A DNA stretch of 64,000 nt, from NCBI GenBank assembly GCA_037447655.1, contig JBBHKE010002952.1, positions 76,091-140,090 of the forward strand, given 5' to 3'. Made by a program: the position numbers and the translations under genes. Shown one piece after another: positions 3,382 through 64,000 of the stretch. The notes beneath the pieces are model-generated. The model had not been told where the DNA came from, did not search any database, and worked only from the letters and a program-made list of their open reading frames with translations. The DNA comes from Zygnema cylindricum (lineage: Eukaryota; Streptophyta; Zygnematophyceae; Zygnematales; Zygnemataceae). Numbering within the stretch: position 1 is the first letter of the stretch; every line of letters begins with the position of its first letter.

Positions 3382-3420
<39 letters not shown>

Positions 3421-6119: not shown

Positions 6120-6830
6120 GTACAGGTTAGTTCAATCGATACTATACATTTGGCAGTTTAAATAATGGGAAAGACACCTTAGTTTACTTTTGTAATATTT
6201 AGTGCGGACCATATATTCATACTTTACTCGTCTAGAATATTATAATTTACATATGGTTTTAAAAATAGCACATTTGGGATGTGCTACAATGACCAAAACT
6301 ACGAGAAGATAGGAGAATAATGACGATAAAAATGTTAGCGTATGTATTGATATATAATACTGGTTATAAAATGGATAGAGGCTTAAAAATAATGTTGCCA
6401 ATAAAATGAATGATATGGATATATATAATTATATAGCGTTGCCGCATAAAGATAGAGTTGACATTTAAATGGTATAAATATAGAGTACATAATGCGGATA
6501 CTGCTCGACACAAATAGAGTTAGAATATTTCGAACATTAACACTTTATTTCTATAACCTACACTAAATTATGTTTCGCGGCATGACTCGTTATGTGCTTA
6601 ACAAAATATTATTGTCAAAACTTCAAGGCGAACCATTATTAGTGTAGATAACACCAAATCCGTCTCAATGCTTGGCCCTCTGAACACAAACGAGCGTTAT
6701 TAAATATTAACTAGGATTTTCTTTCTTCAAGTTAATTCTTTTTTTGTGGTTCACAATTGTCCGCGTCATTTGGACTAAAAATTTAAAAAATCGACGCTAA
6801 AAAAAATTCCATTCTAACTATTTATTGGCG
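6120..6830. other. AT-rich spacer without a gene
   Basis: I see no gene. Short phrases shared with the MITEs (e.g. 'ccattattagtgtagataacacc' near 6635) suggest further decayed insertions. Confidence 0.6.
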
Positions 6831-20669: not shown

Positions 20670-21735
20670 TGTAGAAATTAATGGTACATTTTTTAGTATT
20701 TTCTAGGTCTAAATAGAAATATAGAAAGAAGCCGAGGCAGTCTACCTCTAACTTCTCTCTCCAAACTCTCAAACTTGTCGCAGTCACTGAGAAATTGAGA
20801 GGGAGCTAGAGCCATGGCTACCTAGGCTATCCAGAGGTTTACGGGAAATTTATATAAGTTAAAGGGTTTATTTTATCGAAAATATATGTGTCGGCCGCAG
20901 GATTTGATCCCTGTACCTACCGGCCGGCAGACAGCACATAGCCGATAACCTTAGCCGTTAAGTCTAGGACTAGTGTTACGTAGTATATAGTTTGATATTT
21001 ATTTCAACATGTATGCGTAGGGTTAATCATTTAACTGTAATTTATTACAGGATACATAAATCCGGTAATGTGTAAAGTACAGATTACGGTACGGACAGAA
21101 AATCAATACCGCACATTTATTTCTTAATTGAAACGAATGCCGCGCAAGTATTTATTACGGTTACGATTAAATCCTGATTTAATCGGACGGACAGAATTAG
21201 CGCCGAGATCGCGGAAGAAGATTTCGGCGGTTTGTGGCCATCGCCACATCGGATGACACGTGGCAAAATTACATTGGATCGTCGAATCTTCGGAGATTAT
21301 GGCACCGAATCCGGATATGACATGTGTCGACATTTAGGCCATGTCGTACAATGTCCGTACCTAAAGTACACCGGCAGCTGTACTTTTGCGTACGGAACTG
21401 TATTTTGATTGGTTCCGTATATCAGTAGATAGAGTATGTAAGAGAGATAGGACTTAGAAAAAATTAGGAGATAGGACCCTCTCTCCCAGAGAGCTTCTGT
21501 ACAAAAGGTCAACTTTGACCCCCCCATAACTTACTGCTCAGGGGAGCAAATTCAGAGATTCTTTTTACTATCGACTCAGGGGGAGTCTTCCCTTCACAGG
21601 GGTGCAGGGTGGTCAGGGCTTTTGTCTGCCAGGGTGGCAGGTATTTTTGCTGAAACACAAAGGGGTCAAGATTATCCTGGAGGCTTCTTGGAAGCTGTCT
21701 ACTCTGAGGGACTTATGGAGGGTCTCAGAGTTTCA
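20670..21735 (+). mobile_element. Copia array LTR 1 (1066 bp)
   Basis: Begins TGTAGAAATTAATGG and ends CTCAGAGTTTCA (TG..CA). Nearly identical copies lie at 26101-27162 and 31525-32590. A TATA-like stretch and the start of transcription cannot be fixed by eye. Confidence 0.93.
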
Positions 21736-24700: not shown

Positions 24701-26100
24701 CAGATTAGTGGCAAAGGGGTTTACACAAAAGGAAGGAATTGACTACGAGGAAACCTTTGCCCGGTGGTCACATTTCCCTCCGTCCGCCATACTTCTCAGT
24801 TTAGCAGCGGCGGAAGACATGAAAGTGCATCAGATGGACATCAAGACAGCCTTTTTGCATGGAGAATTGGAAGAGGAGATCTTCATGCGACAACCCGAAG
24901 TTTTGTGGAGGAAAGAGAGGAGAGTAAGGTATGCCGGCTGATTAAATCTCTTTATGGTTTGAAACAGGCGCCTCGACAATGGAATAAGAAGCTTGATGAG
25001 TTTCTTACCGGTCTGGGATATATTCGGATTAGCTCAGATCACTCAATCTATGTTTTCGAAGAGGAGGAAGGTTTTATACTTATTGCAATTTATGTTGATG
25101 ATTTTCTTGTTTTAAGTAAATCAATGGAAAAAATTAACAAACTGAAAACCGATCTTAAGGGGAGATTTGAAATGAAGGATATGGGAGAAGCAAGATATAT
25201 TTTGGGAATTCAAGTAGAGAGAGACCGAAAAAGGAAAATTATAAGACTGACTCAAAAGGAAGCAATAGGGAACATGCTTGAAAAATTTCAAATGGATAAA
25301 GCTAATAGTTGTACAACTCCAATGGAGTTGAAAAAGGGAAGTGAGGGGAGTGAGGAAGAAGGAGTCATAGTCTTAGACGAGGAATTATCTCCTGAAGAAC
25401 AGAAGTTCATGCAGACTATTCCTTACAGGCAAGTAGTGGGAAGTCTAATCTATTTTATGAATTGTACCCGGCGGATTAGCTGCAGCTGTAGGAGTGCTGA
25501 GTAGAAGTCTAAATGCTCCCACTAAGAAGGAATGGGAGGCAGCTAAGAGAGTCTTTAGATATTTGATAGGAACTAGGGATCTATGGTTGGATTTGGGTGG
25601 GGGAGAATACTGACATCACTACTTGGAGTGATGCCAGTTATGGTGATGCTCCGATGAGGAGATGTACTTCTGGATATGTATTATATCTGGGTGATGGGGC
25701 TTGATGTTGGAGTAGCAAACACCAAAAAGGTTATTGCTCAGTCCACCATTGAGGCTGAGTATATGGCCTCTTGCTCTGCTGTAAAAGAATTGATGTGGGT
25801 CAAGTCTTTGCTTGGTGAGCTTGGTCACCTTAAGAGTGGTGTGCAGAAATTTTTTTTGTGATAATCAGCAGCAATCGCTATTTTTGCCAATCCAAAACAT
25901 CATTTTAAAGCTAAACACATGGACATCAGACTCAGCTTTGTTAGAGAGAAAGTAGAAAACAAAATAATCAGTTTAGAGTACAGACCAGATAGTGAGATGG
26001 AAGCAGATATGATGACCAAACCTGTGCCTTCCCCCTAAGCTAATTTTCTGCAGGGAGAAGTGCGGTCTGAAATTAAAGATTGACTAGAAAATAAAGGGAG
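21736..26100 (+). pseudogene. Ty1/copia internal region 1: gag-PR-INT-RT-RNase H
   Basis: Gag starts about 21741 (MGPPSKVPIFNGTGFIYWES). A CCHC knuckle CHFCKKQGHYMAEC lies at about 22615-22656. The protease motif is WIIDSSAS (about 22870), with DSS where DSG or DTG is usual. A GAG-pre-integrase HKR..GH region follows with C-x2-C (about 23390), then integrase with DLVHTDIWGP, SDNGGEYTS and RLNRTLSDSA. RT includes CKWVFKLKLNP, HQMDIKTAFLHG and IYVDDFLVL (about 25090), and RNase H runs to about 26085. PR-INT-RT-RH order is diagnostic of copia. A TAG at 22218-22220 and several single-base indels break the frame. A polypurine tract AAATAAAGGGAG abuts the next LTR. The primer site is uncertain (TGGGCCC follows the LTR by a few bases). 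Confidence 0.9.
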
Positions 26101-27162
26101 TGTAGAAATTAATGGTACATTTTTTAGTATTTTCTAGGTCTAAATAGAAAATATAGAAAGAAGCCGAGGCAGTCTACCTCTAACTTCTCTCTCCAAACTC
26201 TCAAACTTGTCGCAGTCACTGAGAAATTGGAGAGGGAGCTAGAGCCATGGCTACCTAGGCTATCCAAAGGTTTACGGGAAATTTATATAAGTTAAACGGT
26301 TTATTTTATCTAAAATATATGTGCCGGCCGCAGGATTTGATCCCTGTACCTACCGGCGGCAGACAGCACATAGCTGGTAGCCTTAGCCGTTAAGTCTAGG
26401 ACTAGTGTTACGTAGTATATAGTTTGATATTTATTCAACATGTATGCGTAGGGTTAATCATTTAACTGTAATTTATTACGGGATACATAGATCCGGTAAT
26501 GTGTAAAGTACGGATTACCGTACGGACAGAAATCAATACCGCACATTTATTTCTTAATTGAAACGAATGCCGCGCAAGTAATTATTACGGCTACGATTAA
26601 ATCCTGATTTAATCGGACAGACAGAATTAGCGCCGAGATCGCGGAAGACAATTTCGGCAATTTGTGGCCATCGCCACATCGGATGACACGTGGCAAAATT
26701 ACATTGGATCGTCGAATCTTCGGAGATTATGGCACCGAATCCGGATATGACATGTGTCGACATTTAGACCATGTCGTACAATGTCCGTACCTAAAGTACA
26801 CCGGCAGCTGTACTTTTGCGTACGGAACTGTATTCTGATTGGTTCCGTACATCAGTAGATAGAGTCTGTAAGAGAGATAGGACTTAGAAAAATTAGGAGA
26901 TAGGACCCTCTCTCCCAGAGAGCTTCTGTACAAAAGGTCAACTTTGACCCCCCATAACTTACTGCTCAGGGGAACAAATTCAGAGATTCTTTTTGCTATC
27001 GACTCAGGGGAGTCTTGCCTTCACAGAGGTGTAGGTGGTCAGGGTTTTTGTCTGCCAGGGTGGCAGGTATTTTTGCTGAAACACAAAGTGGGTCAAGATT
27101 ATCCTGGAGGCTTCTTGGAAGCTGTCTACTCTGAGGACTTATGGAGGGTCCTCAGAGTTTCA
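26101..27162 (+). mobile_element. Copia array LTR 2, shared by both units (1062 bp)
   Basis: TGTAGAAATT...GAGTTTCA. It serves as the 3' LTR of the first unit and the 5' LTR of the second. No target-site duplication separates the two units. Confidence 0.93.
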
Positions 27163-30100
27163 GGTTATGGGCCCACCCTCTTGGGTACCAATCTTTAATG
27201 GAACTGGCTTCATATACTGGGAAAGTATGATGATAGGAGCTCTATGCGAAAAAAGGTTTTGGGGGATAGTGAGTGGACGTTTGGGGCGTCCATTAAGTCT
27301 TGGAATTCCTCCAGGGTTTGGAGGAACCAGATTCACCAAGAAAGAGGAATCCACCTTCAACGGAGGAAACAAAAGAAGGAGAGGTGGTGGGACAAAGGAA
27401 AGGAGAAGGAGACGACCCACTCCAATAACAACTGGTTCGACATTCATGTCACCTATTCCGAGGAACGAGGAGAATGATACTGAAACTTGGGACTTCAACA
27501 ATATGGCGGCAAAGCACTTCATCCTACGCCATCTCACTCAAGGACTTGCATGTCCTCATTTGCAGGTAGAAAAGGCATTCGATCTTTGGATGGCTCACAT
27601 AGAGATGTACCAAAGTGGTACGATTCAGCAACAACAGTTGGCTGATTAGAAAGTTAAGGAGTATGTATACAAAGGGGGGAAATATGTTGGATTTTTGCAA
27701 TGAGCTTGCTACACTCTTCATGGAGCTAGAGAGTGCGGGAAAAGATATTAGTGAAAAAGAAAAGGTTAACTGTTTACTGATGAAGTTACCTGATGAGTTC
27801 GTGAACATAGTTTACCGGTGTGCAAGACTTGCATGACTCAAGGTGGATATGGAACTCAGTGGTAGGGATGATTCTCGTTCAAGAGAATACAATTGAGATC
27901 CGAAGGGGAGGAAAGAGTGGCCAAGCCTTGGCAACATCGACTGATTGGAGGAATAGGGATTCCCGAAAACCGGTCGGAAACTATGGGGGTAGGGAGCAGA
28001 AAAAATAGGCCGACGAGTTCGAACCAAGGGCTCCCAAAGATTTATGTTATTTTTGTAAGAAACCAGGGCACTATATGGCAGAGTGCACTAAGCTAACCGA
28101 GCTTCGGCTAAAGGAGGGGTAGACCGGTGGTACCGCGAGAGGAAAGAAAAAGGCCCTTGTCACACAGGTACTTGAGGCGGAATCCGAGGACGAGGACGAT
28201 GAGCTCTTTTTGGATGAGGAGTTGGAGGCGAAAATGAGGTCGAAATTCCACGGAAGGCAGAAATGTGCTTACGGTGGATTTAAAGGTGAAGCAGGCTGGA
28301 TCATTGATTCAAGTGCCTCCATGCACATGTGTAAGGATAGGCACCTGTTCACAAAGATAAGAAAGATTCCCACCGTAGAGATAGAGTACGGGGATGGGAG
28401 GATAGTCACCACTACTCTTATAGGATCGGTAGATCTGAAAGTGTTAGTAGAAGGAAAGACATCCATATTAACATTCTCCGATGTCTTGTTTATTCCGGAG
28501 CTGAACAAAAATCTTATCTCTACATCAGTATTAGATGATAAGGGTTTTTGTTACTAGCACTAGGGAAGGAGTTTTTACTGCTAGTTTTGAGGAGGATGTC
28601 TATTTCATTGCTGAGAAAGGTAGCCATGGGATGTTTAGGCTGATTTTAAGTAATGAAACGAAGAAACTTTATTATGCTGGTGTTCATGATATTATGATGT
28701 GGCATAAGAGGCTTGGGCATGTGAATCTAGATAAGTTAAGAGAGATGAAAAAGATGGGAGTGGTGGAAGGGATTCAGTTCAGTGAGAGTGATGATATAAG
28801 TGATTGTAGTGGATGTGCTCAAGGTAAAGCACACAGATTACCCTTTCTAAATCAGCCACTTATAAGGGAGAAAAAATTCTAGATCTAGTACACACAGATA
28901 TTTGGGGACCGGCTAAAGTGCCCTCACCGGGGGGGAAGAGATTTATGATGACTATAACTGATGATTGGTCCTCGGTATTCCCGGGTGTATCTTTTGAAAA
29001 ACAAGTCAGAAGCTCAGGATTGTTTTAGACAATATAAAGCGAGGAGCGAAAAACTCCATGAAACTCCAATCAAGAGAGTAAGGAGTGACAATGGTGGAGA
29101 GTATACTTCTAACCAGTTTGAGGATTTTCTGAGGGAAGATGGGGTTCAACACCAAAAGATAGTTCCAGAAAATCCGAAACAAATGGGGTAGCTGAAAGAT
29201 TAAATAGAACACTAAGTGATAGTGCTAGAAGTATGTTGTCAGATAAAAAGATAGGAAAAAGGTTTTGGGCAGAAAACAATGAACTGTGCTAATTACCTCA
29301 AAAATAGAGTTCTTACTTCAGCTATAAAAGATCAAACACCTTATGAGAGATGGACAGGCCGGAAACCAGACATATCTCACTTAAAGGTTTTTGGCAGTCA
29401 AGTATTCAGTCTAGATACTGATCGGGTCCAATTGGAAGCTAGATCCTAAAGGAAAACCGGGATACTTATTAGGATATGATGAGGATGTTAAAGGATATAG
29501 AGTTTATGATCTAAAAAGGGAAGATATAATCTTATTAAAGCATCTAGTAGTTATGGGATGAATGAAAGTTTGTGGATCCTTTCAAATATACGAAGTCAGT
29601 AAAAATCAGATTTGAGTCAGGAAATTCCGATGACTTTGAACTTCCTAGCTATCCAGGTTTTAGAGAAGATGACATTCTTGCAGGAACAAATCAGACCGAA
29701 AAGGACTCGGCTGTGGAAACTCCAGTGACAACTCTACTCGAAGCGGAAGACGTGGTGGAAATTGATTCGGAATCAAGGGATAGGGGGAGAACCCGAGTTT
29801 GTTCAAAAGAATCCACGAGAACCATCTATTCCGGCCTCGGATTTTGAGGGGGGGGAGGAGAAATAGCAAAAGACTGCAAAAAAAACAGGTTAATAACAAG
29901 GTAACTAAACTATCTCATCAAGATGAACCTAAAACTTATGGAGAGGCGATGACCTGTCCAGAAAGAAACAGGTGGAAGACAGCCATCAATGAGGAGATGG
30001 CTTCAATCATGGCAGCCGATACTTGGGAGCTGGTGGATTGTCCACCTAACCGAAAACCAATCGGTTGTAAGTGGGTTTTCAAATTAAAACTGAACCCAGA

Positions 30101-31524
30101 TAACACAATCGAGCGCTACAAGGCCAGATTAGTGGCAAAGGGGTTTACACAAAAGGAAGGAATTGACTACGAGGAAACCTTTGCCCCGGTGGTCACATTT
30201 CCCTCCGTCCGCATACTTCTCAGTTTAGCAGCGGCGGAAGACATGAAAGTGCATCAGATGGACATCAAGACAGCCTTTTTGCATGGAGAATTGGAAGAGG
30301 AGATCTTCATGCGACAACCCGAAGTTTTGTGGAGGAAAGAGAGGAGAGTAAGGTATGTCGGCTGATTAAATCTCTTTATGGTTTGAAACAGGCGCCTCGA
30401 CAATGGAATAAGAAGCTTGATTGAGTTTCTTACCGGTCTGGGATATATTCGGATTAGCTCAGATCACTCAATCTATGTTTTCGAAGAGGAGGAAGGTTTT
30501 ATACTTATTGCAATTTATATTGATGATTTGCTTGTTTTAAGTAAATCAATGGAAAAAATTAACAAACTGAAAACCGATCTTAAGGGGAGATTTGAAATGA
30601 AGGATATGGGAGAAGCAAGATATATTTTGGGAATTCAAGTAGAGAGAGACCGAAAAAGGAAAATTATAAGACTGACTCAAAAGGAAGCAATAGGAACATG
30701 CTTGAAAAATTTCAAATGGATAAAGCTAATAGTTGTACAACTCCAATGGAGTTGAAAAAGGGAAGTGAGGGGAGTGAGGAAGAAGGAGTCATAGTCTTAG
30801 ACGAGGAATTATCTCCTGAAGAACAGAAGTTCATGCAGACTATTCCTTACAGGCAAGTAGTGGGAAGTCTAATCTATTTTATGAATTGTACCCGGCCGGA
30901 TTTAGCTGCAGCTGTAGGAGTGCTGAGTAGAAGTCTAAATGCTCCCACTAAGAAGGAATGGGAGGCAGCTAAGAGAGTCCTTAGATATTTGATAGGAACT
31001 AGGGATCTATGGTTGGATTTGGGTGGGGAGAATACTGACATCACTACTTGGAGTGATGCCAGTTATAGTGACTGCTCCGATGAGGAGATGTACTTCTGGA
31101 TATGTATTATATCTGGGTGATGGGGCTTGATGTTGGAGTAGCAAACACCAAAAGGTTATTGCTCAGTCCACCATTGAGGCTGAGTATATGGCCTCTTGCT
31201 CTGCTGTAAAAGAATTGATGTGGGTCAAGTCTTTGCTTGGTGAGCTTGGTCACCTTAAGAGTGGTGTGCAGAATTTTTTTTGTGATAATCAGGCAGCAAT
31301 CGCTATTTTTGCCAATCCAAAACATCATTTTAAAGCTAAACACATGGACATCAGACTCAGCTTTGTTAGAGAGAAAGTAGAAAACAAAATAATCAGTTTA
31401 GAGTACAGACCAGATAGTGAGATGGAAGCAGATATGATGACCAAACCTGTGCCTTCCCCTAAGCTAATTTTCTACAGGGAGAAGTGCGGTCTGAAATTAA
31501 AGATTGACTAGAAAATAAAGGGAG
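27163..31524 (+). pseudogene. Ty1/copia internal region 2: gag-PR-INT-RT-RNase H
   Basis: Near-identical to 21736-26100 with the same domain order: gag from about 27167, knuckle about 28045, protease WIIDSSAS about 28300, integrase about 28880-29250, RT about 29930-30560, RNase H ending with a stop at 31509-31511. It keeps the TAG after gag residue string QQLAD (27647-27649) found in unit 1. It carries different single-base indels, mostly in homopolymers (for example extra G at about 27680 and extra T at about 30421). RT reads IYIDDLLVL where unit 1 reads IYVDDFLVL. Not translatable as given; whether all indels are biological is doubtful. Confidence 0.9.
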
Positions 31525-32590
31525 TGTAGAAATTAATGGTACATTTTTTAGTATTTTCTAGGTCTAAATAGAAATATAGAAAGAAGCCGAGGCAGTCTAC
31601 CTCTAACTTCTCTCTCCAAAACTCTCAAACTTGTCGCAGTCACTGAGAAATTGGAGAGGGAGCTAGAGCCATGGCTACCTAGGCTATCCAAAGGTTTACG
31701 GGAAATTTATATAAGTTAAACGGTTTATTTTATCTAAAATATATGTGCCGGCCGCAGGATTTGATCCCTGTACCTACCGGCCGGCAGACAGCACATAGCT
31801 GGTAGCCTTAGCCGTTAAGTCTAGGACTAGTGTTACGTAGTATATAGTTTGATATTTATTTCAACATGTATGCGTAGGGTTAATCATTTAACTGTAATTT
31901 ATTACGGGATACATAGATCCGGTAATGTGTAAAGTACGGATTACGGTACGGACAGAAAATCAATACCGCACATTTATTTCTTAATTGAAACGAATGGCCG
32001 CGCAAGTAATTATTACGGCTACGATTAAATCCTGATTTAATCGGACGGACAGAATTAGCGCCGAGATCGCGGAAGAAGATTTCGGCGGTTTGTGGCCATC
32101 GCCACATCGGATGACACGTGGCAAAATTACATTGGATCGTCGAATCTTCGGAGATTATGGCACCGAATCCGGATATGACATGTGTCGACATTTAGGCCCA
32201 TGTCGTACAATGTCCGTACCTAAAGTACACCGGCAGCTGTACTTTTGCGTACGGAACTGTATTTTGATTGGTTCCGTATATCAGTCGATAGAGTATGTAA
32301 GAGAGATAGGACTTAGAAAAATTAGGAGATAGGACCCTCTCTCCCAGAGAGCTTCTGTACAAAAGGTCAACTTTGACCCCCCATAACTTACTGCTCAGGG
32401 GAGCAAATTCAGAGATTCTTTTTGCTATCGACTCAGGGGAGTCTTGCCTTCACAGGGGTGTAGGTGGTCAGGGTTTTTGTCTGCCAGGGGTGGCAGGTAT
32501 TTTTTGCTGAAACACAAAGGGGTCAAGATTATCCTGGAGGCTTCTTGGAAGCTGTCTACTCTGAGGACTTATGGAGGTCTCAGAGTTTCA
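31525..32590 (+). mobile_element. Copia array LTR 3 (1066 bp)
   Basis: Ends CTCAGAGTTTCA at 32590, directly followed by CGTTT, the right half of the target duplication. Confidence 0.93.
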
Positions 32591-32595
32591 CGTTT

Positions 32596-34435
32596 TGCTG
32601 CCGACTATAAGCTACTGTGTATTCTTTTTGTATCCCCCTAAGCTTTACAATTTTCTTTAAAAGAATTTGAGGTATATTCCCCCCGATTATTCGACCTTAA
32701 AATCAGGATCAGCTCTCCTGCCCGATTTTCTCCCCTGGTTTTAAACTCTCTGAATTTCTCAAAGCTTCACCCTTGGATTTTGTAAAATTCACCTATTCTT
32801 TTCTAGTACACTTAATTATAAACGTGATGAAAAATTTAGAACCTTGAGGACTTAAGAAGTGAGGACCGCTCAAGTTAGAATGAATAAGCTCCAACTTTCT
32901 TCTATGTTTGGGTTAATCATTTTTATGAAAAGAAAGCCCTCTTTGCTTTCCTTGAGCACATCCTTCACACACCTTAAGGTTATCTTTGACGTGGACGTCC
33001 TCAAGTCCTCTGACCATCTTTTTTTCGATGAGTCATTTGAGATTTTGTTCTCCTAGATGACCAAATTGCCGATTCTATAGCTCCAAAGTCTATGCTTCTT
33101 TGCAGAAATTCATCTGTGCATCTTCATCATCCAAACATAAATTAAAAAGATTCCCTTCCGGATATCCCAAAGCGATTAGCTTTCCCTCACTTCTGATTTC
33201 ACAAGGTTCATTATTCTTTTTCTCAAATTCGACTTTCAGTCCAGTCCTCACAGCATGCATAACACTAAAAAGGTTATACTTTAAACCTGGTAAGTATACA
33301 ATTTCTTTTAGATGGCCTTCATGGCTACCTGTATCACAATTATAGTTATAACTTAACTTCGCCCATTAAACTGGTCTCTATAATTTTATCATCTGCTAAT
33401 ACAATCCGTCGAAGACTCTATAATGCTGTGAGAGAAGAAATGATGGACTTGTCATTACACATATGATGAGACACTCTAGAATCTATAATCCATCTCCTAT
33501 TCTGAGCATTTAACTGTGTGAGAAAAAGTTTAGTCTCATCTTGAATGTTCATGGCAAATGATTGTTTGTTCTGTTTGTTTTTGTCTTTGCTACGACAAAC
33601 TAAAGACTAATGACTTGGTTTTCCACAATTGTAAAAAACAATATTTTCATTGAAGTTTTCTGTCCCTTTCTTTTTTAATCTACAATCAGCGTCTGATGAT
33701 TAATTTTGCCATATGTAGCACAAGCAGTTACTAACTTAGTGTTAATTTTGCCATATGTAGCACAAGCAGTTACTAACTTAGTGTGTTTTACTGACTGTTT
33801 GACTTTGGCATAAAGTGCTACATCTGACTCTTTTTCCTCCTTTCTTTTAATTTTAACTTCTTCCTGAACGAAATGCTGACATATTGCATCAAAGTCTACA
33901 GTAGGTTGACTTTTCAAAGCCGTGATTATCATAGCATATTGTGATGGCAATGACCTAAACAGTGTGAGGATCAAGTCATCATCATTCACTTTTGTGCCAA
34001 CTGCGGCTAATTGTTACTTAAGCATTTTCAGTCTATAAATATGGGTTTCTATAGTATCTCCACTCTCCATTCTAAAGTCCAGCAATTTGTTCTTTAATTG
34101 CATAATATTGGACTGATTAGTGCGCTCATGTACAGTCTTTAGTTTATCCCACATAGCCTTAGGTTTATCCAACTCAACTATGTGTAAAAGCTCACGGCCT
34201 TTCATTGCTAGAAAATTTAATGTCGCTGCCTCTTCTTCCCTTCTATCATATCCTGCTTCCGCTACGGGCTTTAGTAGGTTTATGTTGCGTGCTACAATAC
34301 CCCAAAAATTCTTAAACTTTGGAATTCAGGTCATCTTAGCTTTCCACAGTAAATAATTACTTCCAATAAGTTTGTGGATGTCTGTAATTTTTTCTAAAGC
34401 TCCGATTCTATGTTGAGATACACAAATAGTGGCCA
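32596..34435 (-). pseudogene. Older Ty1/copia element, gag-protease part
   Basis: Minus-strand continuation of the element seen at 18240-20664. A gag start at 34435 reads MATICVSQHRIGALEKI. UBN2-type gag phrases follow (PKAMWDKLKTVHERT about 34150; DLILTLFRSLPSQYAM about 33960). A damaged CCHC knuckle with an in-frame stop lies near 33600, and a protease motif WIIDSRVSHHM near 33490 where DSGAS is expected. A local duplication lies at 33693-33782. The active-site changes and stops show it is dead. Confidence 0.8.
33693..33782. repeat. 46-bp tandem duplication in the older gag
   Basis: 'taattttgccatatgtagca' plus 'caagcagttactaacttagtg' occurs twice in a row, duplicating about 15 gag residues. 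Confidence 0.9.
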
Positions 34436-41801: not shown

Positions 41802-41998
41802 CGGTCCGTACCATTTTCCGTACGGTTTGCCGTAATTTTCTTGTACGGTAACTGTACGGATGCCCATTTTTTGCGATATATATCGCGATAATTTATGTTG
41901 GTCTCGGTACGATATATCGAGGACTTTCCTCGATCGATATTCGATATATCGAATATCGAAATTATCGCGATATGAAACTACCCGATACCCAACACTAC
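41567..41998. mobile_element. Foldback element with C23/G41 centre
   Basis: Ends are perfect inverted repeats of GTAGTGTTGGGTATCG (41567-41582, complement at 41983-41998). Subterminal DNA on both sides is rich in ATCGATA/TATCGCGATA words that can also pair. The centre holds a T run (about 41672-41693), an uninterrupted C23 (41722-41744) and G41 (41761-41801) separated by 16 bp. No open frame is meaningful. Superfamily unknown; the right end abuts the next MITE at 41996. Confidence 0.75.
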
Positions 41999-42500
41999 AC
42001 CGCGCATCGTAATTAGAGTAATGAAAAAATTAGAGTAAAAAAACCAAAAAAAATAATTAGAGTAATGAATGCTAATTTATGTGATAGAGCTTTTTCAAAA
42101 GGGGATTTACTCTAATTTATGCGGTGTACTCTAATTTGGCGCGCTAATATCCTCTACTGTAAATAAGGTATTCGTACATAATCTGACAGGACGTACAGTT
42201 TATCGTCACTTTGACGTTTGCATTACGTGGTTTGTTAAAACGCTTTTACATGATAGCGGCCTGTATTAAATCATTATTTGTACTTTCTTACTTTTAAAAG
42301 TACAATTTTGCACGGTCGGACGTCGTCCGTACTCAACACTATTTAAAACGAACCTATATTAGAATTAAAAACGATAATTAAGCCTCACCTAAATTAGAGT
42401 AATGAAAAAATTAGAATCGATTACTCTATTTGATGTGATAGAGTCGAAATTTCGAGCGACCGAATTAGAGTAATTTACTCTAATTACGATTCACGGTGTA
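41996..42500 (+). mobile_element. MITE family A (505 bp)
   Basis: TACACCGCGCATCGTAATTAG to TAATTACGATTCACGGTGTA, with the same interior order as 5608-6119 ('ttgttaaaacgc', 'gcggcctgtattaaatcatt', 'gatagagtcgaaatttcgag'). Confidence 0.85.
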
Positions 42501-42578
42501 GTATTTAGGGTTTTGTTTTTTTGAAAAAAGGGCACCGAATTGGCGTTATATACTCTAATAGCGATTGATGGTTTACTG

Positions 42579-44339: not shown

Positions 44340-44360
44340 ATAAAATAACTTTGAGATAAA

Positions 44361-47300
44361 ATGACTTTGAAATCGATTAGGTCTCGAAAGCGAGGAAGTC
44401 AATTGGACAAGCTTCGTTTTGATGCAGAAAAAAGTAGTGGGAACAACAAATTGCGTGTCTTAAAATTTGCAGAAAAAATGAGGAAATTCAAAAGTGCATC
44501 GGAAGTTGTTGATTCTGACGCTTCGACTGAAACCGAAGAAGAAACGGAAACGGAATCAGAAACGGAAGCGGAACGCGGTAGGGAAACTGAAGCAAAATTA
44601 GAAACGAAAATGGAAACTAAAGCGAAAAAGGAAACTGAAACTAAAAAGGAAAGGCGTCATCTTCGTCGAAGTGGGAGAGGAAAAGTTGACAAGGAAGTAA
44701 AGAAGGATGTCGAATGCGGGAAACCGGACTTTCTGGTGCCTTGCAGCAAAAATAAAAAAGGGAACAATAGTGAGGAGAAGAAGAAAGGAGGGAGAGAGGT
44801 GAGTGACAAAAAAGGAGAGAAAGAAGAGAGGGAAAGGAAAGGAGGGGGGGAGAAGAGGGAGATGAAAGGAGGAAGAGAAGAGAGGGAAAAGAAAGGAGGG
44901 GGAGACGAGGGGGAAAAGGAAAGAGGGGGAGAAGAGAGGGAAAAGAAAGGAGGGGGAGAAGAGAGGGAAAAGAAAGGAGGGGGAGACGAGAGCGACAAGA
45001 AAGGAGGAGGAGAAGAGAGAGAAAAGGAAGGAGAGGGAGAAGGGAGGGAAAAGGAAGGAGAGGGAGAAGCGAGGGAAGATGAAACCAGTTATGATGGGGA
45101 GGCTCGGCTTAAACTGTCGCTGTCAGAATCTGAGTCCCAAAGTGATACTGGAGACTTTGGAGAGACACCGATTTCGAAAAAGCAGTTAGTAATGGTTAGT
45201 CCAAAGGATATCTCAAAAAATAATTTGAACATGATTGGTACAAAGGGAAAAAACGAAAAATCAATATCCAATGTTGACGATAAATATGGTCAAAACGAAG
45301 ATCGTTGCGAATTCCGGCGAACCCATGGGAACAGTTTTGAGGATAAAGGGACGGAAGATAGGAAACAAGATATGGTTGGGTTTGCTCCAGAAATTGGTGT
45401 GGAAGAGGAAAAATATTTCTCCCCTTCAGAATTGGAGGAGACGCAACAAATGGAAGTTCAAAAAAGGAGTGGATTGGAAGCGAAAAAGGAAGATATCGAT
45501 TCTGAAAAAAAACGTTTTTTAAAAGAAGAGACAGACGGAAAAATGAAAGGAGAGTTTGTTTCTGTTTGTGATACGGAAGAGGTAAAGGGATGTGACATCA
45601 TTTTGTATGGACAATGTGAAAATACACAAGTTATCGAAGATAATTTAGGGACTGATTGGATTGAAGAAGAGGGAGGAACTCAGGTTATAGAAAATTGGGA
45701 TTTTACAAATGGATTAGACGGTACTCAACCAATAATTTGGGAACCAGAAATTGGTGAAAAAGATTCTGGAAAATCTTCTCCTCTTTCTCCTCTTCCTCCT
45801 CCTCCTCTTTCAATATGTTCGTCTGGTCCTCAAACAAATCGAACTCTTTCGGGAAATCCAAAGAGAGGTTCACACGAGGAATTTCGATTAAATGGGGAAC
45901 TGAATATGGTTGAGGAGGAGAGGAGAGGGAGAGAATGTATTAAAAACGATGGACCGGAAGGTGCGAGAAGAAACTCTTTGGAGGAAGCTCACAAACGGTT
46001 AAAAGCAATTTGTGGAGGAGAGAGTGTCGAAAGGCAAAATTTTTTGAAGGAAGAATGGTTTTTTACGGAACTAGGAACTGGTGAAAAAATAGAGATCGAA
46101 GGAAAAAATGTGAATCGAAGGAAGTCAAATGAGACTAAATTGGAGGGAGGCGAGAGGAGAAACTGTGAGGAGAAAGAATTGGACGAAAACGTGAACGTAA
46201 AGGAAAGGTCTAATGAAGATGAGAGAGAAAAATGCTGTCTTACGGAAAAAACTTTTCGAGAATCTGAAGAAGGAAAAAATGACCTTCAGAGAGATGTGGA
46301 AGTCGAGGTTAATCCTGGGGTTTCTGTGGAGGGGCGAGGAGAGAAGCGAGAGGGAGAGGGAGAGGGAGAGGAGGAGAAGTGGGTTTTTGGAATGAGTTTT
46401 GATTCTGAAACGGAAATTCCCGGGGAAGAGTCTCAAGCTCGAGCTTTGGGAGTTATAAATAAACTGCTTCCGGATTCTTGTGATGATGTTATTATTCAAA
46501 AATTAAATGGTTTTGAGGGAGAAGGAGAAGGAGAAGGAGAAGGAGAAGGAGAAGGAGAAGGAGAAGAACACAAGCAATTGGATAATAGAGGCGAAAATAA
46601 TCACCTTTTAGGATCAATTATTGTTGGTAAGGAGAAAGAAAAGAACGAGAATGTGGTCTTGAATGGAGATTTAAGTCCGTTCATCTCGAAGGAAATTAAC
46701 GGAAATGGGAAGGGATATTCTACACCAATTATAGGGCCAGGAGGGAGAGGAGGGACAGGAGGGATTGGAGGGAGTGGAGGGAGTGGGAGAGGAAAGTTGT
46801 CGAATAGGAGTCTCTTTGGAGTACCAATTTCTAATATGAAGGGAGGAGTTTTTACGAGTGCGAAAAAAGGGGATGTGGAAAAAGGAAAGGTAGTGAGTTT
46901 CCTTGGAGTGGGACGGGGTGGGGGAGAGGGAAGGGGAGGGAAGAGTGAGCGGGAAATTGTTCAAGAAGTTTATGATTATGTCGATAGTGAACCAAGCGAG
47001 AGGGATTTTACAGACGAAATAAATCAAAAAACGGTCGTTTATACAAAGAGGAGGAGGGAAGAAGGGAGGGAGGGCAGGGGAAGAGCTGAAATTTCTGAAT
47101 GTAAAACTTCCATCGGAGAGGGAGAGAGCGAGGGAGAGGTAGAGGAACAGGGAGGGGGAGGGGGAGGAGATTCCTCAGGAAAACGAGGGGAAGTAGGTAT
47201 GAAAAAAACTGAAGGACCCGCCAAAGGGGGGGAGGGAGGAGAGAAAACTGTAAACTCTGGGATTGAACCTATAATGGACATTTTCAATTGGGTCGACTCG

Positions 47301-50300
47301 CAAATTGACGAGAGAGAGATGAATAAGACAAAAGCTGGGATGGCAGACCTTCCTTCAACCAGAGCTTTTAAAACTCCGGAACGCAGTATTTTAAAGGGAG
47401 GAAAAGGAGGAGAGAGAGGGAGTGAGCGAGGGGGAGGGAGGAGTGGAGGGAGAGGGAGAGGAAGCAAATGTCAGAGCCACGTGGAGGTAAGTAAACCTCC
47501 AACAAGTGGGGGGCGAACGGGAGGAGGGAGAGGAGAAGGAAAAGGAGGGAGGTGGAAAAAAGGGGTTGTATTAGGGGAGCCTGTCAATTTGGAAAGTATA
47601 TTCAAAGAGAGAGAGAGAAGGGAGAGGTCGAGTGGTAAAGACGATGAGAAAAGTTTAGGTCTGTCAGATAAGGAAGGGGTGGCGAGACAGGAAGGTACAG
47701 AAACTATCGATAGTTCAAAAAGAGAATCCGGATTGAAAAAAATTGGGAAAGGTTTTTCAGAAATATCTTTTTTGTCGAGGGAAAAAATAATGAATAAAAC
47801 AGGAAAGGAGAGTGATGTTTTTTCGGTCGAAACAGAAAATTTGAAGAGAGGAAATGAGAAAAATTTGGAGAAAGAATTGGAGAAAGAATTAATAATAGGG
47901 AAAGAAACCGATAATATTAATACTAATATTAGCCATTTGACTGATACCCCAATTGGAGAAGATACCCAAATAGCTTTAGAAGCGATAAATCTTATTAGTA
48001 ATTTACCGAATCTTTATCCATATTTAGGAGAAGGAGAGCCGAAAATAAAGGACAAAAACCAGTTAGGAGGGGGAGGGGGAGAGGAAAAAATAGAAGGTAT
48101 TATTGGAAAAGAAAAGAATGAATTGGAGGGAGGAAGGTTAGAGAAATGGAAAAATGATCCGAAAGCTGATTGGGCCGACGTTTTTGCTCCCAAAGATTTG
48201 CACTTAAGGGGGGAGAAGGGAGGGGAGAAGGGAGGGGAGAAGGTAGGGGAGAAGGGAGGGGAGAAGGTAGGGGAGAAGGTAGGGGAGAAGGGAGGGAAGA
48301 ACAACGAGGGAGAACAAAAGGAAACTGGTAATAAAAGTGAGGGAAAACAGAAGAAAAAGGAGGAAAAGGAGGAGGAGGAAGAAGAGAAAGACGAGGGAAC
48401 GGAAAAAATGAAGGTTGTTAAAGAGGCGGAAACGTCTCGTATGGAGGGAAAAGGACTTAAGGAGAGGGAGGAGGAGGAGGATAGGGAGGATGGGAGGGAG
48501 GAGGAGAGATTGGCAGGCTCCCAAGGGTTAAAAGAATATGAGACGAAAATCGAATCGGTTAGGGGAGTTACAAAAAATGAAAATACTGAAAATTTTAATG
48601 AAAAAAAATTGGTTCAAGAAGTGTCCAAAGGGAGAAAATTAAATCGAGGAGTAAAGGTTAATAAACGAGAGGAAGAAAGGAGTAAAGAAGGAGAGAGAGG
48701 GAGCGGAAGTAAAGTTTTTGAGTTAAGGAGTGGGGTTATAAGAAAGGATATTCCAAAAGAGAAAGTTGATGGAAAGTTTCCTATCGAAGATAAGACAAAT
48801 GACGATAAGGCAAATATAGATAAGTCAAATATAGTTGAGACGAATGCAGATAAGACAAATGTAGATGAGACAAATATAAAGGCAGGTAAGGCAAATATAG
48901 ACAAGAAAAATATAGATGAGACAAATGCCGATAAGACAAATGCATACAAGACAAATGCAGATAAGACAAGTACAGATAAGACAAATAGAGATACGACGAT
49001 TATCAATGAGACAATTGAAGATAAGATCGTTGTGATCAGTAGCAGGAAGTCAGGGAGACTGAAAAATGCAAATGAAACGAGAATGGGGACAAGAGGGAAG
49101 GACAGAGAGGGAGACAATCCAGACAACAAAGAATCTGTTGTGTGTAAGAAAACTTCTCAAAATTTTGCAAAAAAATCTCCTGAAAAAGGTAAAATAACTC
49201 CTGTAATTTCCCCTGAACTTTCCCTTCGAATTTCTCCTCGATTGAAAGAATTGAAGGAACTCCGTGAAGATTTTAGAGGGAAAATGGTCAAAAGGGAGAC
49301 AGGACAAGATAAGCCGGAGGGAGAAGAAGAGGGAGAAGAGGGAGAAGAGGGAGAAGAAGGAGAAGAGGGAGAAGAGGGAGAAGAGGGAGAAGAGGGAGAA
49401 GCAGGAGAAGAGGGAGAAGAGGGAGAAGCAGGAGAAGAGGGAGAAGAGGGAGAAGTGGGAGAAAAGAGAGAAGAAAGAGAAGATAATACCAAATCAAGGA
49501 GAGAGGCGCAGTCGGTTGCGAAAATAAGTCCGCAAGTGAAAGAAAGGAATTTGGAAAGAGTTGGGAAGAAAAAAAAGACGAAAGTAGAAAAGAAAGCATC
49601 AAAAGAAAGTATCAAAAGTGGTGAAAAGGGAGAGAGGGAGAGGGATAGAGGGAGAGAGAAAACGGATAAAAATACTGAAAAAAAATCTGGGAGAAGTATG
49701 GAAAATGAGGAAAACGGTAGGTCACTTAGAAGGACTTCTTTACGAAAAGAGAGAGATGTACTTTCAGAAGGAGAGAGTAAGGGGAAAAAGGAAAAGGAAG
49801 TTACGAAAAGGAAATTTCCAGGGCTTGGTCAGGAGGAGGGAACAAGAAAGAAAGGAGAGGATAAGGATGTCCAAATAACAAAACGGAGGAGGAAGGACAC
49901 GACCCCAAAATATTTGGAAGAGGTGAAACTCGAGGTAGATGTAGAGGTAGAGGAGGCGATAAAGGTGCAAGGAAAAAGACAAAAGGAGGAGGAAGTGGTT
50001 CCTGTATTGAGGAAAAGACGAACTCCGGGATCTCTGTCAAGGTCAAATGCACCTGCGGAGAAAAAAATTAAGGCAGGGAGAGAGAGAGAGAAGGAAGTTG
50101 CGAGTACAGAAAATGAGAGGGAAAAAGTGAGAGCTTTGAGGAACGTTTCTCCTCCTGACACTACTATTGAAGGAGGAGGAGGCAGAGGTGGAGGAGGAGG
50201 AGGAGAAGGAGAAGGACAAGGACAAGGACAAAGAAATTTGAGGTCCAAAAAGCCGTTAGATGAAGAGAAAGTGGGAGGAGGAGGAGGAGAAGGACAAGGG

Positions 50301-51096
50301 CAAGGACAAAGAGATTTGAGGTCCAAAAAGCCCTTGGATGAAGTGAAATTGGGGAAAAGTCCAAAAGAGAAACTTGCAAATGCTACTTTTACTGAAAAAG
50401 AAACAAAGAAAGATTCAGAAAAAGATTCGAAGAAACATTCTAAGGACGATTCTAAGGAAGTTTCAAAGAAAAGTTCAAAGGAAGTTCCAGAAAAAGCTTT
50501 GGGAAAAGATTTGGAAAAAGATTTGGAAAATTATTTGAAGGAAGATTCTAAGAAAGATTCGAAAAAAAATTCTAAAGACGTTTCTAAGAAAAATTCGAAG
50601 AAGGATTCTAAAAGAGAGTCGAAGGATAGCAAAAGTCCTAAGGTACACTCCACAGTAATTCAGGGAGAGGAGGAGGGATTTTTTCCTTCTTGTACTCCTA
50701 TTTCAAGTCAAGAAAGGAAGGCGAGGAGGGAGGCAACAGATACCAAGGTTCTCTTCAGTCATTCCCTGGGAGAGGAGGAAGTGAAGCTTTACACTGCGGT
50801 GAGGGAATCTCCACCAGCAACCCCATCTTCTCTTTGGCCTTTCCCTCCTTGTCTCTCATTTACGTACTTAAAATTCAAAATATTTGACCCTTGTCCCCAG
50901 GCTTTATTATTGTCCGAGATATCGACATCATATTGGTGAACTGAGGGATAATGTTCATTTGTAAGATGTTCTTTCCAGTTCTTTTCTGAAATTTATATTA
51001 CCTCTTTGTCTTTTTACATCTTTCAACCTCTAATAATTTCTTGTGATTTGTACGTCATCTATGCTCATAGTTCTATAATTTATAACTCCTTTTGAC

Positions 51097-51167: not shown

Positions 51168-52558
51168 TGCTTATGCTCATTGTTTTACAATTTAACACTT
51201 TTTGTCTTATTCATGTTAACTTTTTTTACTTCGTAGTCAGTAACAAAACTGGGAGGCCGGGTCACTTCTGACCCTTAACTTTGTACCCATTTTGTAACCG
51301 AAAAGTTTGGGACAACCGTCAATATGTTCATGTTTTTTTGTTTTATTCATGTCGTTTACTTTTGTCATTTTCAGACGGTAACAAAACTGGGAGGCCAGGT
51401 CACTTCCGACCCTTTACTTTGTACCCATTTTGTAACGGAAAAGTTTGCGAGAACTGTTAATATGATGATTGCTGTCGCTCGAGGCCTCCAAGTGGCGACT
51501 CCTGATTGGTTGGAAAATTGCAAAAGGGCGAAAATGTTTGTCGATTCGAGCAATTTTGTTCTTCAAGATGTTCGAAAAGAACGAGAATTTGGGTTTTCTC
51601 TTCGAGTTGCTTTGACCAAAGCTCGACAAAAACCCATTTTTATGGTACTGTTTTGGACCGAGTTTTTTTACCGCCTTTTTTTTTTTGGGACTGACTTTTT
51701 TTTTTTTTTTTCGGCACATTTTTTTTTTTTGTTTTTTGGTTTTACCCTTTTCTCGCTGAAAATTAATAAACTTTAGTTTTGTTCGAGTAATTAGGGTTTT
51801 GGATTTTTCTTAAACTGTTAAAAGCCAAGTTTAGAATATGAGTGTCACATATCACAATTTTTTTTTTTGATTTTTTCGGGTTTGAAGGTAAAAAAGATTA
51901 TAGATTTAAAAACTTGTTTTAAAAAGGATAGAGTTTTAAAAAACATCTGGTTTTAAAAAGTCCCTAGTTTTTAAAAATTCCATAGTTTAAAAGTGCAGCA
52001 AAAAAAAAAAAAGCCGGGGACATACCACAATTTTTTTGTTTGTATTATAAATGTTTTAAATTTGAATTTATATTTAATTTACTAAGAGGACGTTGGAGTT
52101 TAATTAATTTTTTACGTCGTTGAATATTAATTAAATGTGTATAATAATAATATTATCTGCTTCAAATCTTTTTTCAAAGCTATACTTTCTTCTTTTTCCT
52201 TCTTTTTTCCTTCGAGAAAAGGGAGCTAATTCTAAAAACTAACATTGGAAACTAGTTTTAAAAACTAATGCTAGAAAACTAATATAAGGATCCAATTTCA
52301 AAACTAACTATAGAAACTAATTTTAAAAACTTTTTTTTACAACTCATTTTAGAAACTTGTTTTTAAAATTGTTACAATGGTTTAAATATTGACACAATTT
52401 TTGTCCACACTATTTATGGTATGGGTTTTCAGGGTTGGCGAGTGTACATCGCCCCTCTCACTGCCCCCCTTCTACCCCAATTAGACACCATTCTTACCGC
52501 GGCCGGAGCCCAAGTAAATTTTTATTTTTTTTATTATTACTGCTATTCTTATCATTTA

Positions 52559-57078: not shown

Positions 57079-57577
57079 TAACCGCGAATCGTAATTAGAG
57101 TAAATTACTCTAATTCGGTCGCTCGAAATTTCGACTCTATCACATCAAATAGAGTAAACGACTTCTAATTTTTTCATTATACTATTTAAGGTAAATTATA
57201 ATTAGCGTTTTTAATTCTAATATATGTTCGTTTTAAATAGTGTGGAGTACGGACAACGTCCGACCGTGCAAAATTGTACTTTTATAAATAAAAAAGTACA
57301 AATAATGATTTAATACAGGCCATTAACATGTAACTGCGTTTTAACAAACCGCGTAGTAAAACGTCATAGTGACGATATGTACGATTTGTCAGATTCTGTA
57401 CGAATACCTTATTTACAGTAGAGGATATTAGCTTGCCAAATTAGAGTACACCGCATAAATTAGAGTAAATTCCTTTTTGAAACAGTTCTATCACATAAAC
57501 TAGAGTAAATTACTCTAATTCTTTTTTTCTTTTTTTACTCTAATTTTTTCATTACTCTAATTACGATGCGCGGTGTA
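57079..57577 (-). mobile_element. MITE family A (499 bp), minus orientation
   Basis: Left end GTAACCGCGAATCGTAATTAG, right end AATTACGATGCGCGGTGTA. It is the reverse of 41996-42500 in order of interior words. Confidence 0.85.
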
Positions 57578-57580
57578 CTG

Positions 57581-57781
57581 TACACCGCCAATCGCCATTA
57601 GAGTATATAACGCTAGTTCGGTGCCCCTAAATTTTGACCCCAAACCTGAAATAGAATTAATAACGCTATTTAAGTACGTGGACCATAATCTGCCACGTCT
57701 CAGGCACTAAATTAGAATCAATAACGCTAATTTTTTTTTGACGCTATTTAATCCTTGACTCTAATAGCGACTGGCGGTGTA
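57581..57781 (+). mobile_element. MITE family B (201 bp)
   Basis: TACACCGCCAATCGCCATTAG to AATAGCGACTGGCGGTGTA. It sits 3 bp from the family A copy on the left and 3 bp from a family C copy on the right, giving a three-element array. Confidence 0.85.
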
Positions 57782-59066: not shown

Positions 59067-62000
59067 ATGGCGTCGCTTCTTCGCACGTGCGGGTTTACAT
59101 TGTTCGCTTTGGGCTGCCTTGCTGCCATTTGTGGACTCCCGACTAATGCGGGTAAGTGGGCCATTTTTCTTAGATTTTTATGGAATAAAATTAGTAATTG
59201 CAAAATTTGATAGAAAACATTTGTATTTTTTGGTTTTGTGGTCAAAAACAATGAAATTGCATGTTTTTTTTTTATAGAAAAAGGAATTTTTTTCTTGTAG
59301 AGGTGATTTTTTTATTATTTTGACGCTTTCAATATTTTAAATCTTGAGATTTTTGGCTTTTTATAAATTTAAATGGTTTGTGATTTTGACATTCTTGTTA
59401 TTTTGAAATTCAACATTTTCGCATTTCAAAATTTTAGCATTTTGCTCTTTTGAAAAATTAAATTTTGAAATTATAGCACTTGGCATTTTTTTATGTCAAA
59501 TATTCTTGACAATTTGAAAATTTTGACATTTTGTTGTTTTGACATTTTGGGCATTTATATTTTCAACCTTTTGGCAATTTGGTGTCCTTTTAACATTTTA
59601 GAATTTAGAATTTTGAAATTTTAACATTTTGGAAGTTTGACATTTCTGACATTTTGACATTTTAGTATTCACTTTAAAAATTCATTTTTTCTTTTTAATC
59701 AATTTCGGCAATATTTGGAACTTTTTAGAATGTGTTGGACCTCCATGTGGCCGAGGTTTTGAAAACCCCATTAGTATTTCTTCTCTTCCGTACAAATTTG
59801 AGGGAAACATTTCAAACTGGGACAATACGTACGGAAAGGAAGGACCGGATGTAACTTTTCAATACATTCCCAAAATGGACGAGGTACGTGTTTTTTTGTA
59901 TATTCCTGTATTTTATTTTCAATTATTTAATAATAATTTTTTTCTTTGTTTTATTTTTTTTGAAATTTTATTTTTGTTGGATTGAATGAACGGGGTTTAA
60001 CTTATCAACATTCAAAAAAGACCGAAGTAATTTCTTTTTTTGTTATTTCGTGTATTATTTTTGACTTTTTTTGGATTTTTACCCCATTTCTTGCAATGTT
60101 TTTCATTTCATTTTTTATTAGTAATTTTTGTATTTTCTTTGGTATTTTTCGTAATTTTTGAAGATTTAAGGAGCGGATATTTTTTTTCAATATATTTCAT
60201 ACCTGTGAAGCTCAAATTTTATTGTTGAAATTGTTGGATTGGCACGTGAATGCCGGTTCAATACGGGGTAGAATGTGAAGTGTCACACTCGAATCCGCCT
60301 AAAAGAAATAGGTACGGACCCGCCAGGCTCTACATCGAGCTGGTGGCACAGTGGTTAGTGCGCTGACAGCTCAAGTCAGAGGTCCCAGGTTCGAGCCCTG
60401 GCCGGCTCACTTTTCCCTAGTATGGGACATACCGAATCCCGGATTTCTAGGAAATCAACATGGTATCAGAGCCAGCGGGATTGCGGATGGTGTGACCGGC
60501 CTTCCCGTGAGGGGGGGTGTTGGATTGGCACGTGAATGCCGGTTCAATACGGGGTAGAATGTGAAGTGTCACACTCGAATCCGCCTAAAAGAAATAGGTA
60601 CGGACCCGCCAGGCTCTACATCGAGCTGGTGGCACAGTGGTTAGTGCGCTGACAGCTCAAGTCAGAGGTCCCAGGTTCGAGCCCTGGCCGGCTCACTTTT
60701 CCCTAGTATGGGACATACCGAATCCCGGATTTCTAGGAAATCAACAGAAATGTTATAATTTTTGCACTTATCGATAATCGATTTGTTTGTTCGATATACC
60801 GAGAAATAAAAACTGCGGTAATTGACTATTTTCTATAATATTTTTGTCAATAAAAACAGAGAAAAACTAATGTCGACAAAATCGACGACGTGCCCATCGT
60901 TTACCTTTCTCTATCTATCTCTTTTCTCTCTCCTCTTTCTCACTCTCCCTCTTTTTTCTCTCTCCCCTTTTCTCATTCTCCTTCTCTCTTCCCACTCTCT
61001 CTCTCTCCCTCTTTATTTCTCCTCCTCTCTCCTTTTATCCCTCTCTCCCCCTCTCTCCTAATCTCTCCCTCTTCTTTCTTTTCCTCTCTCTATCTTCCTC
61101 TCTTTTCCTCCCTCTCCCTTTTGTTGTCTCTTTAGTGACACATTAGGATTAAACCCTTAATTAAAATAAGCTTGCTATACTACAATTGTGGTTTTCCACG
61201 TGGCTCATTTTGGACCAGTGAAATAAATAGTGCTATCAATATTAATTTATGATTTTCTATCTAAAAATATGCATGAAATAAGAGTGATTTACTCCATCAA
61301 ATTTCTACTGATCAAAAGCGAGTCTTGTCGTTGATTTCTTTTTCAAGATTATGATTAATAACTTGTGATCCAAAATTCTTTTTTGTCCCTTTTTTACTTT
61401 TTGTTTTGATTTTTTCTTTTTTTGTTCTTTCTTGCGTCTCTTTCCTTTTATGGTTACGACCGTAACGACATGTGATTCAAAATCCCCTTTTTAACTTCAT
61501 TTTTCTTGATATTGAAAAAATCTTTGTTTTTTTTTTTTTTTTTTTTTTGAAGACCGTGACAATATCAACTTGTGATCCGGATTTAATCAACGAATTCGAA
61601 TTCACAGTTACCGTTTTTTTGAAAAAAGATAAGGAACTTACGCAAATCGCTCACCTCGAAGATCCATGTTTCGCTGAACCTCTATGGATAAAAAATTTAC
61701 CACTCTTACCAGAAAGTAAATACATTATTGTAAGTTTATTTTTTTGAAACCCCTCAAATACCCTACAAAAACCCTAATAAGCCTCTATCAGGATTGTGGG
61801 CATTGTATGTTTTTCTTTGCTTTGCTTTCCTTTCTCTCTCTCCCATTTCACTCTCGCTGTCTCTCTCCCTCTCTCTCTCTCTCTCGCTCTCTCATTAACC
61901 ACCAAGTATATGTATATATAATATATGCATATTTATAGGTATATGTATATAATATATATATTTATATATATTGATTATGTTTACTCATTATTAACGTTTT

Positions 62001-63881: not shown

Positions 63882-64000
63882 TGTTGGATTGGCACGTGAA
63901 TGCCGGTTCAATACGGGGTAGAATGTGAAGTGTCACACTCGAATCCGCCTAAAAAGAAATAGGTACGGACCCGCCAGGCTCTACATCGAGCTGGTGGCAC
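63882..64000 (+). mobile_element. Third TRIM LTR copy, cut by the window end
   Basis: Starts TGTTGGATTGGCACG as in the LTRs at 60232 and 60518, and matches for 119 bp with one extra A in the 'ctaaaaagaaat' stretch. The tRNA-like part begins at 63988 and runs off the end. Whether this is a solo LTR or a full TRIM cannot be seen. Confidence 0.9.

Follow-up and report, generated by a model that had tools for sequence, protein, structure and literature searches.

The window (the whole stretch of DNA that was analysed, 64 kb in length) contains a 515-bp element that is probably a recent copy of a non-autonomous TRIM of the Helenus type, with a tRNA-like block in each LTR that would act as RNA polymerase III (pol III) promoter and as R region, and with proteins supplied in trans by a Copia element. 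The element has two LTRs, a primer-binding site, a polypurine tract and a target-site duplication (TSD), and belongs to a multicopy family that includes solo LTRs and tandem arrays. The genome holds at least four Helenus-type families or subfamilies (A to D, the window element belonging to A) with two different tRNA heads, which is new here.

The element in the window and its multicopy family

The two LTRs of the window element are identical over 229/229 bp, start with TGTTGG and end with TCAACA; because of this identity the element is judged recent. Within each LTR, the tRNA-like block has 105 bp upstream and 51 bp downstream of it (Table 1). Both tRNA-like sequences match the Rfam tRNA family RF00005 with 54.6 bits (E 2.5e-10; gathering cut-off 29 bits), and no other part of the 64-kb window has an Rfam match at gathering thresholds. 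The preliminary description of this DNA had given the coordinates of the element exactly, and its identical LTRs, its 57-bp interior with polypurine tract, its 5-bp target duplication and its cloverleaf and TTTT in each LTR were all recovered. It had also named the primer-binding site correctly as one for initiator tRNA-Met, the length of the match being 15 nt rather than the 13 nt proposed.

Table 1. Features of the element at 60232-60746 and of the second copy that begins in the window
Feature	Position	Strand	Remarks
Whole element	60232-60746		515 bp, two LTRs and interior
Left target-site duplication	60227-60231	.	GAAAT
5′ LTR	60232-60460	+	229 bp, TG...CA ends
tRNA-like sequence in 5′ LTR	60337-60409	+	73 nt, all arms paired, G33
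Box A-like sequence, 5′ LTR	60344-60355	+	TGGCACAGTGGT; position read off sequence
Box B-like sequence, 5′ LTR	60388-60398	+	GGTTCGAGCCC; position read off sequence
TTTT, 5′ LTR	60411-60414	+	Candidate (leaky) pol III terminator
Interior	60461-60517	+	57 bp, non-coding
Primer-binding site	60461-60475	+	15 nt, complement of host initiator tRNA-Met 3′ end and CCA
Polypurine tract	60507-60517	+	GTGAGGGGGGG, end of interior
3′ LTR	60518-60746	+	Same sequence as 5′ LTR
tRNA-like sequence in 3′ LTR	60623-60695	+	
TTTT, 3′ LTR	60697-60700	+	Behind tRNA-like sequence
Right target-site duplication	60747-60751	.	GAAAT
Second full copy, same family	63882-64000	+	Start only in window; contig C2219:139972-140488, TSD CTCTT

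The genome searched was a 352.8-Mb assembly of 2689 contigs. The 515-bp unit gave at least 46 matches (40 of 926 candidates scored); a 39-nt core of the interior, with up to three mismatches, gave 189 (105 on one strand and 84 on the other, subfamily B included; reversed control 0); and an exact 19-mer, consisting of C or T and then nucleotides 1-18 of the tRNA-like block, gave 490 (reversed control 1). Perfect 5-bp duplications are present at the element ends in 19/40 family A loci that were read with their flanks. Identical flanks suggest that two pairs of loci (L032/L033 and L043/L044) arose by segmental duplication of entire copies, and the count is then 18/38; the right flank of the truncated copy L036 is also common to L014. 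The loci without a perfect TSD include several that are truncated or are arrays, and some that seem complete (L011, L013, L023). The divergence between the two LTRs of a copy ranges from none (L001w, L009, L010) to strong. One of the identical pairs belongs to the second copy in the window (L010), which, followed into the contig, is a full element with LTRs identical over 230/230 bp.

Solo LTRs flanked by matching 5-mers were found at four of 20 loci (L093, L098, L099, L103) and additionally at L073; that at L093 sits in a GA repeat, where a chance 5-mer match is likely, and other solo LTRs (e.g. L086, L088, L089) have no matching 5-mers. Tandem arrays with shared LTRs occur at L027, L029, L041 and L047, and contig C683 carries four interior cores at a spacing of 286 bp.

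A single duplication of a region with an ordinary tRNA gene would likewise present a pair of identical 229-bp repeats that both contain a tRNA-like gene, and ARAGORN does name the window copy tRNA-Glu(CTC). Nevertheless, the 189 interior cores, the TSDs, the solo LTRs, the primer site, the purine tract and the loss of U33 throughout the family (see below) speak against such a duplication, the probability of which is negligible. A gene captured once, or a segmental duplication, is refuted by the copy number and the TSDs; the preliminary description had proposed a count of both, and had set few copies without TSDs, or one captured gene, against its own reading. Neither holds, as there are many copies with TSDs.

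The remainder of the window contains other features. An Aha1-like gene lies at 3371-4450 (-), with the Pfam domains Aha1_N and AHSA1; among the 120 of 560 matches listed, the best match of its protein has 84% identity, and, of the matches that carry an organism name, those from ferns, lycophytes, Closterium, a moss, liverworts and seed plants follow with ~42-48%, so that the host would be a streptophyte. A 2194-codon open frame (44355-50936), the first 120 residues of which are rich in Lys, Glu and Ser, is followed by a BRCT-type piece (51279-51773) with a local 84% duplication. There is also a dispersed repeat of ~500 bp, present in both orientations at 5602-6122, 41992-42503 and 57081-57584, the copies of which are 77-90% alike.

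The tRNA-like module and its relatives

In family A, the majority LTR sequence forms 21/21 cloverleaf pairs of the standard kind, and the anticodon loop is AGCTCAA in 66/83 LTRs. Position 33 is G in 75 of these LTRs, A in seven and a gap in one, i.e., U in 0/82 of those with a letter there (the set includes a few B-type LTRs, and a single LTR piece of 84 was excluded because of its length). In ordinary tRNAs, position 33 is U. Thus, the name tRNA-Glu(CTC) is merely formal for family A, and a functional tRNA-Glu(CTC), as called by ARAGORN for the window copy, is rejected because U33 is gone; the tRNA-like RNA of family A would appear to have no use in translation. The preliminary description had spoken of a complete tRNA gene: the full fold and the Rfam score bear out the cloverleaf, and the term itself is too strong in view of the absent U33.

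The relatives of family A were reached via a mixed tandem array (L104, C2190:40841-42314), in which pieces of families A, C and D adjoin and share LTRs and interiors, and which suggests recombination or template switching between families; parts of this array were used as queries for C (L104:301-538) and D (L104:887-1140). Subfamily B has the interior of family A bar a few bases and a tRNA-like block of 72 nt. Twenty B loci were fetched, of which 14 were delimited by script, 9/14 with perfect TSDs; in one copy (L117) the LTRs are identical over 229 bp and GTCAT is present on both flanks. Family C has at least 74 genome matches (40 of 835 candidates scored), and in L128, the only copy of which the full sequence was read, the LTRs are 222 bp long with one difference, the interior has 66 bp, CCTTT stands on both flanks and the tRNA-like block scores 56.3 bits. 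Family D has at least 53 genome matches (40 of 304 candidates scored). Two of three copies read were delimited by script, with LTRs of 246 and 247 bp and an interior of 61 bp; no perfect TSD was found in these two, and L133 has AACTG on both flanks (by eye). The tRNA-like block of family D is a different tRNA in a similar place in the LTR (44-54 bits). ARAGORN gives the names Glu or Gln to copies of A and B, and Ala or Asp to copies of D. In family D, L133 and L135 have C at position 33 and L134 has T; because of this T33, the test of position 33 does not speak against a decoding role for the D head.

The tRNA-like module is more alike between families than is the rest of the LTR. Its identity is 89% between A and B, against 83 and 87% for the rest; 86% between A and C, against 61 and 60%; and 96% between B and C, against 61 and 61% (majority sequences were used for A and B, and L128 alone for C). 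When the C flanks are shuffled, the mean identity is 48-49% and the maximum 55-63%, so that on the 3′ side the C flanks are near chance. The acceptor, D and T arms are common to families A, B and C, which lack U33, and their anticodon stem has changed yet has been re-paired: A differs from B and C by C-G versus U-A at 27-43, and by G-C versus C-G at 29-41. These paired changes can be due to selection on the fold or, alternatively, to two parental tRNAs.

Perhaps, the block has been selected as a folded cloverleaf beyond boxes A and B, with a tRNA-type recognition or processing that sets R, two tRNAs having been recruited in one streptophyte genome; this is put forward tentatively, as something rather unlikely. 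A use of the cloverleaf fold itself, for example as an RNase P/tRNase Z processing site setting the RNA ends or for the binding of a host factor, is improbable. The changes on both sides of 27-43 and 29-41 are not within boxes A and B; in an alignment of 10 sequences (D included) 93.3% of cells are paired and 9/21 pairs have changed on both sides, a degree of pairing that 0/500 shuffles reached and that compares with 27-41% in slid controls. However, the difference between A and B may go back to a single event, or to two tRNA genes that were captured or converted; D, as a separate tRNA, inflates the count from the alignment; and related sequences can beat every shuffle. Furthermore, among 1737 pair cells within family A, broken cells (105) outnumber both one-sided (67) and two-sided (10) changes, the isolated 73-mer does not adopt the cloverleaf at minimum energy (the D and anticodon arms appear in folds of the LTR and of the long RNA), and cleavage in both LTRs should damage the template.

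Among the copies of family A, no special conservation of the tRNA-like window was found, its divergence being the 67th lowest of 157 windows; the conservation is thus seen between families and not among the copies of family A. A weaker hint comes from family A substitutions other than C>T and G>A, of which there are 100/6042 inside the block and 435/12863 outside. A parental tRNA or SINE of the head common to A, B and C was sought by exact pattern (the head preceded by A or G): of nine matches, all four that were read are LTR copies or an LTR fragment. A more distant parent of this head is possible.

Probable transcription, priming and mobilisation

The mechanism that we favour starts in the 5′ LTR, where RNA polymerase III would bind to boxes A and B of the tRNA-like block. 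Transcription would begin at, or just ahead of, the first base of the block, and would continue past the weak TTTT and across the interior and the 3′ LTR to give an RNA of ~365 nt. Given its position in the LTR, the block would be a natural R region if transcription begins at its first base, i.e., the tRNA-like block would be the repeated R region of the element RNA. The first strand would be primed by host initiator tRNA-Met and the second by the purine tract, and a Copia-type element would provide reverse transcriptase, integrase and particles in trans.

With regard to the boxes, the strict box A of Helenus (TRGCY) is matched by family D (TAGCT) and not by the window copy (TGGCA). Box A starts with TGGCA in the aligned A, B and C copies except mutated ones, and TGG and the box B motif GGTTC are present. 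TTTT stands directly behind the block in 73/83 family A LTRs, and the family C copy L128 has no TTTT anywhere in its LTR, so that the element might do without a terminator there; presumably, all that strand transfer would require is an R near the 3′ end. Several points weigh against the pol III model: the TTTT of the 5′ LTR would end some transcripts early; the window copy departs from the strict box A; the block is not specially conserved among the copies of family A; and L128, with no TTTT, has TATATAAAAT 32 nt upstream of its tRNA-like block, an arrangement that would suit pol II as well. In the B majority sequence there is CAA at -7 to -5 (by eye), which the window copy lacks at these positions. 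These upstream motifs would fit pol III, and pol II too.

It is conceivable, with a clearly smaller likelihood, that a TATA-like box in U3 drives pol II transcription of the TRIM, and that the tRNA-like block was captured once and carried along, or serves only as a structure in R. In addition to TATATAAAAT in L128, there are AT-rich stretches at like places in A and B (by eye), and some TRIMs related to Cassandra are described as bearing TATA boxes in place of the 5S promoter (PMC10853983). On the other hand, family C has kept boxes A and B and all arms within flanks that are only 60-61% identical to those of A and B, family D has another tRNA head at a similar place in the LTR, and 22-32% of flowering-plant tRNA genes are given as having TATA motifs upstream (PMC11700998).

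The pattern of the host initiator tRNA-Met was found in five genes; the four that were read represent two variants, ending GGCTCCGATA and GGCTCTGATA, and the complements of both variants with CCA fit primer sites of the elements over 15 nt. The majority form of the primer site corresponds to the first variant, and that of the window copy to the second. At position 8 of the primer site, family A has 29 G, 11 A and 1 T (41 interiors starting TGGTATC, of 45), and subfamily B has 14 G and seven A. This is consistent with A or G at position 8 tracking the two variants of the host tRNA, and stops short of proof, as G to A is also expected from CpG decay. The match extends over 12 nt in the family C copy, and likewise in L104 in the interior that precedes the D LTR. 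The tRNA-like sequence was rejected as a self-primer, since its 3′ end with CCA fits the primer site over 4 nt only (by eye).

The exact primer-site pattern occurs at one place outside the interiors of Helenus-type elements (C185:62166, in L107), where the LTR end TCAACA is combined with 13 nt of primer site. Downstream there is a Copia-type gag (Pfam Retrotran_gag_2, 61.1 bits), which makes this Copia element a candidate helper for mobilisation in trans. A Copia reverse transcriptase is also present in the locus, on the strand opposite to gag, and is, for that reason, not assigned to the gag element.

The window itself holds two tandem Copia-type elements (20670-32597) that share a middle LTR of ~1.08 kb, the copies being 97% alike. 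After the first LTR, 11 nt (GTTATGGGCCC) match the complement of the anticodon region of the host initiator tRNA, and the apparent start ATG of gag lies within this site, opposite the CAU anticodon. At 19186-19851 (-) there is a piece of reverse transcriptase (Pfam RVT_2) from a further Copia-type element.

Comparison with known systems

The tRNA-derived SINEs (SINE2) also have a tRNA head with boxes A and B. They differ in being without LTRs and in joining the head to the tail of a non-LTR element, whereas the head described here stands within LTRs, together with a primer site, a purine tract and a 5-bp TSD. No SINE with the A/B/C head was seen among the four sequences read of the nine matches from the single exact-pattern genome search. 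SMARTs and other plant TRIMs share with the window element the very short LTR structure, the primer site, the purine tract and mobilisation in trans, and differ in having LTRs described as being without a small-RNA gene (PMC10886601).

The preliminary description was right that the element is a TRIM whose LTR holds a tRNA-like module, and its analogy with Cassandra was apt. Cassandra, which uses a 5S pol III promoter, similarly has the sequence of a pol III-type gene in the LTR, a Met primer site and no coding capacity, according to PMC10853983, and its tandem arrays are known (PMC7215508). The difference is that the LTR of Cassandra carries 5S rRNA sequence and that of the window element only the tRNA; a search of the 64-kb window with Rfam gave no match to 5S rRNA.

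The preliminary description had known of no family with a tRNA in this place; such a class, Helenus, was in fact named in 2024, for TRIMs with tRNA-derived sequence in the LTR from fungi, animals and one plant, Selaginella (Kojima 2024, PMC10886601). There, Helenus is grouped with Cassandra and Ajax as TRIMp3, its movers are given as Copia in fungi and Gypsy in animals, most families have a box A of TRGCY with YGG and a box B of GGTTC, and pol III transcription is called unproven by the author. Helenus is mentioned in passing in a 2026 meeting report (PMC12859917), and no further report of Helenus in plants was found in the open-licence literature.

The window element is filed as a new Helenus-type family, Helenus-1_SMo of Selaginella having been compared by its description only. 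As portrayed in PMC10886601, Helenus elements are TRIMs of less than 1000 bp (515 bp here) with two LTRs, a tRNA-derived sequence in each LTR, a primer site and a purine tract bounding the interior, and a GGTTC box B, all of which are shared. Further features in common, by the same account, are several families per genome, tRNA-like sequences that are mostly unlikely to be a working tRNA and, for plant and fungal Helenus, a 5-bp TSD, as seen here in family A and in the delimited B loci. There are also differences. Most fungal Helenus are described with a primer from the anticodon loop, and the window element would use the 3′ end of the initiator tRNA. In Helenus-1_SMo the LTR has 120 bp and the interior 85 bp, in comparison with 229 and 57 bp. 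The preliminary description had considered the interior about as short as possible: it is indeed shorter than that of the Selaginella element, which has the shorter LTRs, and SMARTs of 292 bp are cited in the same paper.

Set beside Helenus as described there, the genome is distinguished by its number of families and subfamilies and by the second tRNA head, and it extends Helenus-type elements from one plant (Selaginella) to a second streptophyte, with recent copies. The interest lies in this multi-family system, in the second head and in a module conserved between families. One practical consequence is that automated annotation of the genome may yield hundreds of false tRNA genes, as ARAGORN names copies Glu, Gln, Ala and Asp. 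Thus, with several families and recent copies in a streptophyte, there is a system for testing LTR retrotransposition driven by pol III.
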